From assembly GCA_024684065.1 (NCBI GenBank), contig JAIKXO010000348.1, positions 1 through 46,721 of the forward strand: DNA of 46,721 bases, in the 5' to 3' direction. A program made the translations under genes and the position numbers. This DNA is from Lachnospiraceae bacterium (GTDB lineage: Bacteria > Bacillota_A > Clostridia > Lachnospirales > Lachnospiraceae). Each line of letters begins with the position of its first letter. Positions within the stretch are counted from its first letter, which is position 1. This document shows positions 16,748 to 26,809 of this stretch, piece by piece. Below the pieces are notes generated by a model. That model was not told where the DNA came from, did no database searches, and saw only the letters and a list, made by a program, of their open reading frames with translations.

Positions 16748-16941
16748 CAGCGCCGATTTACGAAACTGCGCCGATTTGCGGAGCAAATCGTGCGCTTAGG
16801 AACGAACTTCAGTTCGTGCCGATTCGATCGTAAGATCGAATCATTTCCTTACTGCGCCGATTTGCGGAGCAAATCGTGCGCTTAGGCATAAACTTTAGTT
16901 TATGCCGATCCAATTCGACATTTTCTTTAGAAAATGTCGAA
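16748..16941. repeat. Intergenic array: truncated arm plus two hairpin-module copies
   Basis: This array fills most of the 306-bp gap between coaD and the coiled-coil gene. A lone left arm (16748-16765) is followed by M1 (16768-16795), M2 (16802-16817 core), M3 (16821-16842) and the ATTTCC tail. A second M1 (16854-16881), an M2 with TA-swapped pairs (16885-16906) and a different third hairpin then follow. That third stem pairs TTCGACATTTTC with GAAAATGTCGAA (16914-16941). No gene, tRNA or convincing promoter is seen in the rest of the gap. Confidence 0.85.
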
Positions 16942-22386: not shown

Positions 22387-22419
22387 ATGGATTCCCCTCT
22401 CAATCATTCAGAAACGAAT

Positions 22420-22578
22420 CTGCGCCGATTTGCGAAACTGCGCCGATTTGCGAAACTGCGCCGATTTGCGGAGCAAATCGTGCGCTTAGGCACGAACTTT
22501 AGTTCGTGCCGATTCGATCGTAAGATCGAATCATTTCCTTGTAAATCGTGCGCTTAGGCACGAACTTTAGTTCGTGCC
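22420..22578. repeat. Hairpin-module array in the parE leader
   Basis: In the 482-bp gap upstream of parE, an 18-bp unit CTGCGCCGATTTGCGAAA occurs twice (22420-22437, 22438-22455) and a third time as the left arm of a complete M1 (22458-22485). M2 (22489-22510), M3 (22511-22532) and the ATTTCC tail follow. Then comes an orphan M1 right arm, GTAAATCGTGCGC (22541-22553), followed by another M2 (22557-22578). The order left arm, full element, right arm looks like one element inserted inside another. The rest of the gap holds the parE promoter and a terminator. Confidence 0.85.
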
Positions 22579-22679
22579 GATCCGATTCATGGAGCGCTCC
22601 CCTAAACGCTTCTTTTGGATATCATTAAAAAAGACAGCCCGATAACGAAAAAAGGGCCATGTGTCCGATAAACAGGATT

Positions 22680-24644: not shown

Positions 24645-25823
24645 TCACGCCCTCTCTTTTATAGAGCTCAACCCCTTTTCAAGCCTTGACAACCCGTCAA
24701 GGAGCCTCTCTCTCGGGCAGGCTATATTCATCCTCAGGAAATATTCGCCTCCCGACCCGAAGGTCTCCCCGGAATTAAGGAATAATCCCGCTTCTTTCCT
24801 TAGTCTTTCGGAGAGCTCACCGGCCCTTATGCCATACTCCCCGCAGTCAAGCCATAGCAGATATGTGGAATCCGATCTCGTAACCCGGACCCCCGGGATA
24901 TTTTTCTCAATATAGGCAAGGGCGGTCTTTTTGTTCTCATATACATATTCGTTAAATTCCAAAAGCCAGTCTCCTCCGCAGGTAAAGGCTGCGACAGCTG
25001 CATCGGCGGATAAAATATTGGGAACGTTTATCTCGTCTGCCGAAAGGGATCTGTATACTTTTTTCCTGAGCTTCAGATCAGGAACCACGGCCGCCGCCGT
25101 CTGAATGCCCGCAAGGTTAAAGGCCTTGGTCGGGGATATTGCCACGATGAGATTCTTCCTAAGCTCCTCATCCAGAGACAGGGCGGATACGTATTCGGTT
25201 CCGGGATCTGTAATATCACAGTGTATCTCATCGGAGATCATTACGATGCCACGCTCATTACAGAGCCCAGCTATTTTCTCAAGTTCTTCCCTGCTTAATA
25301 TCCTTCCAACCGGATTATGGGGATTGCATACGAGCATAAGCTTCGCGTTGTCACCCGAAAGCTTTTCCTTAAGATCGTCAAAATCTATCTCCCATGTACC
25401 CTGTGCCTTATCGTAGATAAGCCTGCTCTCTATCACCTCCCTGTCATCACCCCTGATGATATGGTAAAAGCCTACATAAACAGGTGACAGGACCACAACC
25501 CCTTCGCCGGGGGCAGTAAATCTTTTTATTATGCTTGAATTTATAAAATTCACTCCAAGTCCGAAGATGAGCCAGCTTTCATCTATCCTGACATGATGGC
25601 GCTCTTCCCACCATTTCCTGTATGAACCCGCCCATTCCTTCGGGATAGAGGGATAGCCGTAAACACCCTGGCCGATCCTTTTTATCAAAGCCTCTTTCAC
25701 CTCCGGAACTACCTCAAAGTCCATGTCCGCGACCCACATCGGGAGCTCATTATCGGAAACAGACCATTTTTCTGAGTCCGTATTTCTTCTGTCGATCATT
25801 TTGTCAAAATCATATTTTCCCAT
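24645..25823 (-). CDS. patB: PatB/MalY-type PLP aminotransferase (cystathionine beta-lyase-like)
   Basis: A 392-residue fold-type I PLP enzyme of the MalY/PatB group, which cleaves C-S bonds of cystathionine or cysteine conjugates. It begins DRRNTDSEKW, as this group does, with WVADMDFEV. PLP residues visible are N170 in CNPHNPVG, D198 in ISDEIHCD and the Schiff-base lysine K233 in SPTKAFNLAG. I use the ATG at 25821-25823, with AAAGGGG six bases before it. The open frame continues 36 codons upstream, but that part lies within the MITE-like element and is not conserved. Confidence 0.9.
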   Translation of the reverse strand: MGKYDFDKMIDRRNTDSEKWSVSDNELPMWVADMDFEVVPEVKEALIKRIGQGVYGYPSIPKEWAGSYRKWWEERHHVRIDESWLIFGLGVNFINSSIIKRFTAPGEGVVVLSPVYVGFYHIIRGDDREVIESRLIYDKAQGTWEIDFDDLKEKLSGDNAKLMLVCNPHNPVGRILSREELEKIAGLCNERGIVMISDEIHCDITDPGTEYVSALSLDEELRKNLIVAISPTKAFNLAGIQTAAAVVPDLKLRKKVYRSLSADEINVPNILSADAAVAAFTCGGDWLLEFNEYVYENKKTALAYIEKNIPGVRVTRSDSTYLLWLDCGEYGIRAGELSERLRKEAGLFLNSGETFGSGGEYFLRMNIACPRERLLDGLSRLEKGLSSIKERA

Positions 25824-25842
25824 TTCTAACCCCTTTATCCGG

Positions 25843-26051
25843 AATATTTTCCACCTGTGCGGTTGACATGTATGATAATATCTGCATGCTGCCTGCAGCA
25901 AGGCAGATATTATCATACACGAGCAACCCACCTTTAAATGAGCAAAACGATTTGCGAAGCAAATCTTTAAGCACGCAAAGCGGGCGGTTTTGCGAATGTA
26001 TGTGGTGGGTTGGATTGCAAGAGCTATCCAACCGCACAGGTGGAATATTTT
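25843..26051. mobile_element. MITE-like element with 15-bp terminal inverted repeats and 8-bp target duplication
   Basis: Perfect inverted ends CCACCTGTGCGGTTG (25851-25865) and its complement (26029-26043) bound 193 bp. A perfect direct repeat AATATTTT abuts each end (25843-25850, 26044-26051). Inside is a 17-bp perfect stem (25869-25885, 25903-25919) whose loop holds a 5-bp stem. A second pair CAACCCACC/GGTGGGTTG (25924-25932, 26004-26012) encloses GCAAAAC/GTTTTGC and an M1-like GATTTGC/GCAAATC hairpin (25949-25965). No transposase or credible gene is encoded. The size, ends and duplication are the signature of a non-autonomous transposon. Confidence 0.8.
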
Positions 26052-26110
26052 TCAAAAAAACCGAAACAGCCAGAAAAGCCGTCATACATACAGGATGAGT
26101 AAAAGGCTGT

Positions 26111-26809
26111 TCAGGCAAGCAGCGCTTTATACTGCTCATTCCTTATTTTTTTTGAGGAAGACAGGATCAGATAATCACAGCCTGCCCTCCTTGCGGCTTC
26201 TCCATCCCTTGAGTCACGGTCTCCTATCATAATGATATCGGAAGCGCCGTATCCGTGATCGGCCATGATAAGCTTCAGTCCTTTGGGATCGGGCTTTAAT
26301 ACTCCGAGCCTTTCGTCCGTCGCCTCATAATATCCGTCGGCGGAAAGGCCAAGTGCTTCAAGCTTATCGGCAATCGGATAATCAGAAAAAATAAAGCATG
26401 AAATCCCATGCTTCTTAAGCAGGTCAAATATCCCCGCAGCCTCATCGTCGCGGCATCTTCTTATATATTCAAGAGGCCTTCTGTATATCCATTCCTCCAC
26501 GGCATCCTTTACTTCCTCTTTGGACATTTTAAGCAGGGAAGCCGTATAGGCATATTGCTGCCCGGCAAGTCCTTCTTCTGTCCCCGGCGTTTTTTCGGAA
26601 ACCTCTGTCTCATGCCAATTTTCCCGTATCTTTCTGAATTTTCTTACGGCTAAAAGCTCCTTTATGCGAAACGGATGCAGAAGATAAAATTTTACAAGCT
26701 CTGCCGCCATTATGAGACGCATCTTTTTCTGAAAATAAAGAGTGCCGTCGAGATCCCAGACGACGGCCCTGTATGATAGTAATGATCTGTGTTTTGTCGC
26801 CATACTCAT
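26111..26809 (-). CDS. HAD-superfamily phosphatase paired with UbiA
   Basis: A 232-residue HAD hydrolase. Motif I is WDLDGTLY with D19 and D21, motif II is FIFSDYP, the motif III lysine is in VLKPDP and motif IV is IGDRDSRDG. The cap is helical. Its start overlaps the UbiA-family stop by 4 bp. In related lineages a HAD domain is fused or adjacent to decaprenyl-phosphate phosphoribosyltransferase-like UbiA proteins, where it could remove the 5-phosphate from the polyprenyl-phosphoribose product. That role is inferred here. Confidence 0.85.
   Translation of the reverse strand: MSMATKHRSLLSYRAVVWDLDGTLYFQKKMRLIMAAELVKFYLLHPFRIKELLAVRKFRKIRENWHETEVSEKTPGTEEGLAGQQYAYTASLLKMSKEEVKDAVEEWIYRRPLEYIRRCRDDEAAGIFDLLKKHGISCFIFSDYPIADKLEALGLSADGYYEATDERLGVLKPDPKGLKLIMADHGYGASDIIMIGDRDSRDGEAARRAGCDYLILSSSKKIRNEQYKALLA

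Follow-up and report, generated by a model that had tools for sequence, protein, structure and literature searches.

A gene-less mobile element of Lachnospiraceae with a conserved folded core and a likeness to Clostridiales-1 RNA

The element and its neighbourhood

The window, by which we mean the whole stretch of 46,721 nucleotides that was analysed, carries a 193-bp element at 25851–26043, between an aminotransferase gene and a HAD hydrolase gene. The element encodes no gene, and like other MITEs it is short and has no transposase gene. The features of the locus are the following.

24645..25826, minus strand: aminotransferase class I/II (PF00155)
25843..25850: left target-site duplication AATATTTT, exact 8-bp repeat
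25851..25865, plus strand: left terminal inverted repeat CCACCTGTGCGGTTG, perfect, the same as the left end of a 1,665-bp insertion sequence (IS)
25853..26041, plus strand: full-length match to RF01699 (Clostridiales-1), 44 bits, below the gathering score of 48
25861..25928, plus strand: hairpin A, of variable sequence, with arms of ~26 nt and a bulged A near its base
25924..26012, plus strand: hairpin B, outer stem CAACCCACC/GGTGGGTTG, inner stem GCAAAAC/GTTTTGC with two small hairpins
25938..25944, plus strand: box 1, ATGAGCA, agreeing with the RF01699 consensus aUGAGcA
25949..25965, plus strand: small hairpin GATTTGCGAAGCAAATC, resembling the dispersed M1 hairpins
25991..25997, plus strand: box 2, TGCGAAT, agreeing with the RF01699 consensus UgCGAAu
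26008..26033, plus strand: hairpin C, GGTTGGATTGC/GCTATCCAACC, its base within the right end
26029..26043, minus strand: right terminal inverted repeat CAACCGCACAGGTGG, perfect
26044..26051: right target-site duplication AATATTTT, exact 8-bp repeat
26111..26809, minus strand: HAD hydrolase

An earlier note, made from the letters of this DNA, had described 193 bp with perfect 15-bp ends and an exact 8-bp duplication of AATATTTT, and all of these properties were reproduced. The location that it gave, between the HAD gene and the aminotransferase, also held; the latter matched PF00155, and the name patB is that note's own label. Two minus-strand open reading frames (24645–25931 and 25810–26139) enter the element. 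They were read as extensions of the neighbouring frames, because the aminotransferase domain begins only at residue 34 of the frame starting at 25826 and the ATG at ~25823 is preceded by AAAGGGG, a putative ribosome site recognised by eye. With the frames read in this way, the claim that no gene is encoded stands. The aminotransferase gene starts ~20 bp beyond the duplication, and a terminator-like hairpin (26065–26083, minus strand) is located between the end of the HAD gene and the element. A promoter and terminator scan yielded only weak sites, and a scan of the window for further matches to the ends CCACCTGTGCGGTTG or CAACCGCACAGGTGG, with up to three mismatches, yielded none.

The paired and branched interior, with a 17-bp hairpin enclosing a smaller one, was borne out by folding. 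The DNA fold of the whole element reached -63.4 kcal/mol (z -11.05), and none of 200 shuffled sequences folded equally well; the RNA folds of the two strands gave z values of -12.5 and -10.9, and the interior still folded when the ends were removed (z -7.2). The 17-bp hairpin (25869–25885 with 25903–25919) is perfect and holds the small hairpin in its 17-nt loop. The base of hairpin A, GGTTG, falls within the left end of the element. On paper, boxes 1 and 2 would permit tandem G.A pairs.

Copies, target sites and a candidate parent insertion sequence

Further copies of the end pair elsewhere had been set beforehand as a test of mobility. The pair was found at similar spacing in 25 stretches of public genome contigs, which hold 26 other copies; the record titles are mostly Lachnospiraceae, and otherwise less defined Clostridia or bacterial assemblies. 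A copy is also present in a cultured strain, D16-51 (RAYE01000038.1). Ten genomes chosen for holding copies contained 72 exact ends against 0 for a reversed-pattern control. The spread of the element across genomes is patchy: carriers made up 4 of 200 genomes in a sample of one family, 16 of 81 and 7 of 38 genomes in two genera, and, by BLAST, 2 of 37 in the genus whose copies most resemble that of the window, counts that include the genomes at the sample centres, themselves carriers. In viral contigs, 56 stretches each had a single exact end without an exact partner, and these were taken as chance matches.

The fetched loci provided 56 element readings, two of which overlap others, and 55 could be tested for a target duplication. 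The 8-bp flanks were identical in 31 of these copies and differed at one position in 13, at two in seven and at more in four, so that 44 of the 55 agreed within one mismatch. When flanks of different copies were paired as a control, 117 of 2970 pairs were exact and 666 of 2970 were within one mismatch. The exact duplications conform to AAAWWTTT. Some exact ends with an AT-rich outer flank had no visible partner (L046, L054, L058, L060, L071, L072, and L089) and ran on into other sequence, and these were read as one-sided deletions or decayed copies. Nested or tandem ends were observed at L202:2043–2350 and L061:2999–3216, where one element has apparently been inserted into or beside another.

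An empty site was recovered for a sibling copy. The joined flanks of the 219-bp copy L063 (genome G008) match G243, a genome of the same genus, over all 640 bases at 97%. The empty site shows AATGATTT once, and the occupied one shows two copies of AATAATTT. The empty-site check proposed earlier thus succeeded for this sibling but not for the window's own site, which has no alignable empty allele because the closest HAD orthologues that were found are only ~60% identical. Among the 37 genomes of the genus whose copies are most like the window's, none has an element beside HAD, and 35 lack any match to the element. The elements of G001 and G002 are on contigs other than those that carry HAD; in G209, HAD is followed by an aquaporin gene, with neither aminotransferase nor element.

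These data bear on the idea that the sequence has been domesticated as a cis-acting sRNA or as the leader of the aminotransferase gene and that its mobile appearance is incidental. The element does lie immediately upstream of that gene, and RF01699 is filed as an sRNA gene; yet the copies are dispersed, they are flanked by target duplications, one of them has an empty site, no element adjoins HAD in the 37 related-genus genomes, and the RF01699-matching strand is antisense to the aminotransferase gene. An aminotransferase-specific regulatory leader is largely refuted by the copies elsewhere and the empty site, and we regard it as very improbable. The copies, the duplications and the sibling's empty site support instead the past transposition of a non-autonomous element, and the element is a short gene-less mobile DNA of gut and rumen bacteria.

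The earlier note had left the parent family open and had suggested a search for a full-length insertion sequence sharing the ends. Such a sequence was found in another genome than the window's, G322, and it makes a candidate parent with an ISKra4-like transposase. Five fetched IS copies in G322 have both ends; four are 1,664–1,665 bp long, and one is shorter and consists partly of N. Their left end is identical to CCACCTGTGCGGTTG of the element, their right end, CTACCTGTGCGGTTA, has two mismatches, and exact 8-bp duplications were seen by eye in three of the five. The same genome also contains a folded MITE remnant with an exact end, L198 (47.6 bits). At L190:2057–3325 lies a decayed relative of this IS, 1,269 bp long; its 15-bp ends are perfect, and its other strand has fragments resembling a transposase.

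The G322 IS contains frames of 93 and 401 aa. Its transposase gene likely carries a frameshift, judging by its homologues, because three of the four that were fetched are single frames of 493–499 aa. The 401-aa protein matched NF033572 (ISKra4) over 364 residues with 89–90 bits (E 2.7e-25 and 1.5e-25), and the next-best transposase matches were ISLre2 and then ISH6. Six homologues, five of them longer (493–503 aa), scored 71–87 bits with the same model. All of these values are below the NCBI curated cut-off of 205 bits for membership of ISKra4, so we name the transposase "ISKra4-like"; by its profile match it is distantly related to ISKra4. An 8-bp target duplication is known for the ISMich2 group of ISKra4. 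The G322 IS therefore shares with the ISKra4 family the transposase match and the length of the duplication, and differs from it in a score far under the cut-off.

Among 5.8 billion proteins searched, 2125 relatives were detected, 120 of which were among the matches listed. A homologue was detected in only 6 of 25 element-bearing genomes, and none was found in G001, G002, G007, and G008; many carriers therefore lack the transposase gene, or their assemblies miss it. When single ends were followed in the first ten genomes, they proved to belong to truncated elements or to adjoin host genes, and no transposase was recognised among the frames read there.

Folded and AT-rich interiors

The interiors enclosed by these ends are of two kinds. 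Eight elements with the same ends have an AT-rich interior with no fold (z +0.5 to -2.5) and no boxes. Of the other readings, 41 were scored and seven short ones were left unscored; 40 of the 41 had z values of -5.0 or lower, down to -14.7, the sole exception being a damaged 137-bp copy, L205 (z -0.6). The eight unfolded elements use the same ends, and therefore folding is unnecessary for transposition; a fold required for transposition was ruled out in this way, and the transposase would need the ends and not the fold.

The folded copies also vary in length. Shortened versions without whole hairpins were found, some copies have gained a hairpin, and sizes of 88, 100, 136–137, 152, and 219–220 bp occur, several with exact duplications. 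The GGTTG/CAACC of the ends recurs at the bases of the hairpins; these repeats could serve as direct repeats for hairpin deletions and would permit branch migration between two pairings.

The pairing is retained while the stems change. RNAalifold predicted 54 pairs from 20 interiors, and 29 of them showed changes on both sides. For hairpin A, 958 of 1025 cells are paired in 41 unique copies, and 18 of its 25 pairs occur as two or more Watson–Crick types. An earlier count, based on 29 unique copies and including one mis-indexed pair, gave 90% pairing in this hairpin versus 24–40% in slid controls and up to 82% with shuffled partners. The bulged A was retained in 27 of 29 copies of the hairpin. 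The boxes persist as well: the pair was present in loose form in 32 of 35 full-length copies, 17 of which had the strict form, and on the opposite strand in none of the 35. Among 20,000 background windows, the loose pair was found in 241 and the strict pair in four.

The counts bearing on the folded strand and on gene orientation are suggestive at most. G.U cells outnumber A.C cells by 96 to 17, which only suggests that the plus strand is the folded one; counted as distinct column and type events, the difference is 22 to 12 (p 0.12), and in hairpin A alone it is 19 to 8 (p 0.052). The orientation against genes was 25 to 5 in a crude count, in which the elements of L061 and L202 were counted twice, and 10 to 5 when genes were called more strictly (p 0.30); other thresholds gave 11:6, 10:4, and 8:3 (p 0.18–0.33). 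Single neighbour genes were antisense in 48 cases and sense in 24, and these cases are not independent.

Could the folded interior be a product of mutation alone? Palindromes are prone to mutation, and an ordinary MITE might keep its hairpins perfect by template switching between the arms or by gene conversion, with no selection on the fold. Such a process agrees with the loss and gain of hairpins as wholes, with the eight unfolded AT-rich elements bearing the same ends, and with the G.U excess that is not significant when distinct events are counted. Correction between arms, however, should erase imperfections, yet the bulged A and the boxes persist, and it should not favour G.U over A.C cells. 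It also leaves unexplained the matches to RF01699 and the same boxes in a second family with other ends, described below. We therefore consider a purely mutational origin unlikely, and favour a core that is conserved on its own account.

A possible link between the element and intergenic hairpins of the host had been suggested. The GATTTGC core that the element was said to share with the dispersed M1 module was indeed found at three window hairpins, 16773, 16859, and 22463, with one mismatch (loop GGA versus GAA). Palindromes flanked by GCGC, GATTTGCGGAGCAAATC, are dispersed in the two window regions 16773–16875 and 22400–22590 and are accompanied by hairpins such as ACGAACTTTAGTTCGT and GATTCGATCGTAAGATCGAATC, and palindromes similar to the GATTTGCGGAGCAAATC type were observed in G002 at L275, L277, L279, and L283. 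When 15 genomes were searched for GATTTGCGNAGCAAATC, G001 had two occurrences, both inside elements, and G002 had it in nine places, four in elements, four outside them and one that was not read; all four outside have GCGC on at least one side, as in the M1 of the window. The sequence was absent from the other 13 of the 15 genomes; five of these belong to the same genus and lack the element. The proposed link of the element to host hairpins thus finds partial support: this distribution may reflect exchange of a small hairpin. Exchange of sub-hairpins with host hairpins was set aside, the cases being few.

Relation to Clostridiales-1 RNA and the proposed mechanism

In a table of Weinberg et al. 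(2010; PMC2864571), the row for Clostridiales-1 RNA (RF01699) reads Clostridiales/human gut. This family was the top Rfam match of the window element, over its full length and on the plus strand only. Three folded elements elsewhere also matched, all on the element's plus strand: L025 at 49.3 bits, which passes the gathering score, L021 at 45.0, and L012 at 39.9. With E up to 1, five of the eight folded elements tested gave no match and both AT-rich control elements were silent; at the gathering score, no element was matched in L001–L020. Plain identity with RF01699 was rejected, most tested copies being below its cut-off. In the literature searched, no title or abstract among the matches listed linked Clostridiales-1 or RF01699 to a MITE or to ISKra4.

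The likeness lies in architecture. In both, which occur in related bacteria, the same strand has a long variable hairpin, then the box hairpin, then a third hairpin and a closing stem, and the element has this hairpin order and the aUGAGcA/UgCGAAu boxes on one strand. The third hairpin of the element differs from the RF01699 consensus in having no internal loop, and the closing stem, 7 bp in Clostridiales-1, is in the element the 15-bp transposon end. The flanks of seven classical copies were examined, and six showed by eye neither long ends nor a duplication; in L006, the closing stem reaches into the flanks. Five of nine classical copies have the loose box pair.

Several neighbouring sequences were recorded at these loci. 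In L006, a classical RF01699 copy (320–473) with palindromic flanks lies 2 kb from an element, and just after it another copy of this kind begins. A third element type, 136 bp long with ends GTAACAGTTCAG and an exact 8-bp duplication AAATTTTA, adjoins a classical RF01699 copy at L264:207–342, and L020:6249–6447 has ends similar to this type without a matching duplication. An Rfam drum RNA (RF02958, 76 bits) is located at L007:5063–5194, within 1 kb of an AT-rich element.

Matches to RF01699 below the cut-off in other genomes led to a second family of elements, 142–172 bp long, with ends GTAACTATTCAGA and the same boxes; shorter derivatives also occur. In eight copies, the 8-bp flanks differ on average at 1.75 positions versus 4.75 in other pairings, two of the eight flank pairs are exact, and only 2 of 40,320 permutations were as good. 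A ninth copy found later, L335, has flanks that differ at four of eight positions. Another dispersed family, with a CATGAGGAAGTAGCCCG core followed by GATTCCGAATG and with similar flanks, was observed in G331 (L267, L269, L270, L271, and L273).

We compared the families by models R1, built on the CCACCTGTGCGGTTG elements, and R2, built on the GTAACTATTCAGA elements. R1 gave weak matches in the second family (L257 at 27.1 bits; two of six fetched loci at 21–22 bits), no match at 35 control loci, and one of the nine classical Clostridiales-1 copies (E 0.006). R2 matched 18 of 19 folded loci of the first family on the right strand, missing L017; the window element scored 34.4 bits (E 9e-6). Among the nine classical copies, it matched L253 and L252 at E <0.01, one at 0.034 and one at 1.3. 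However, R2 also matched the box-less control L172 (32.9 bits, E 2.4e-5) and two other hairpin elements, L259:2277–2437 and L020:6260–6386, so its scores near 30 bits are only supportive. Locus L256, with 47.3 bits for RF01699, 42.6 for R1, and 51.3 for R2, looks like an intermediate between the element families and Clostridiales-1.

The resemblance might instead be convergence, hairpin-rich sequences of similar size tending to score with each other's models. In keeping with this, unrelated hairpin families score on the window element (e.g., RF03540, 30 bits), R2 matched a box-less control, and most folded copies have no listed RF01699 match. On the other hand, RF01699 is the top match, at full length and on one strand only, one copy exceeds Rfam's own cut-off, its consensus boxes agree with those that the elements conserve by themselves, and the background frequency of the box pair is low in both its loose and its strict form. 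Convergence is accordingly a rather doubtful account, and the interior is better described as a three-hairpin module related to Clostridiales-1. This module occurs in no fewer than two MITE families of Lachnospiraceae, whose ends CCACCTGTGCGGTTG and GTAACTATTCAGA are unlike, and we tentatively raise the possibility, at somewhat less than even odds, that a Clostridiales-1-type structured RNA (or single-strand DNA) domain is itself what is conserved and that differing transposon ends carry it. If so, a catalogued "sRNA" would be partly a mobile module, its interior staying as its ends change, and an orphan Rfam family with no known function would gain a genomic identity as the interior of a mobile element.

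In conclusion, the reading that we prefer, with a probability of roughly 0.78, is that the element is a MITE mobilised in trans and that the structured core it carries is conserved in its own right. It has the inverted repeats and duplication of a MITE, dispersed copies, a sibling with an empty site, and an IS with matching ends. On the comparative sequence evidence, the element moved as DNA, and a predicted fold is retained in its core. The ISKra4-like transposase likely binds the 15-bp ends in trans, and the 193-bp DNA would have been inserted by a staggered 8-bp cut at an AAAWWTTT target. The core may be conserved since one strand, probably the plus strand, folds when single-stranded, most likely in the form of RNA, within transcripts that run across the insertion. 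In the least certain step, the folded RNA would serve to bind a host factor or to render the insertion tolerable. The chances are about even that the folded strand has a role, which would most simply be that of an RNA limiting the harm of insertion or recruiting a host factor.

The ends, the target and a candidate transposase are now available for tests of mobility, and the element provides a case of a bacterial MITE that conserves a folded core and not the ends alone. Structured bacterial MITEs include NEMIS/Correia, ERIC, RUP, and BOX, which are short and gene-less, have inverted ends and can fold as RNA. By description, the element resembles them in all of these properties; it is set apart from them, again by description, by the covariation of its separate hairpins and by the occurrence of a related core between other ends.
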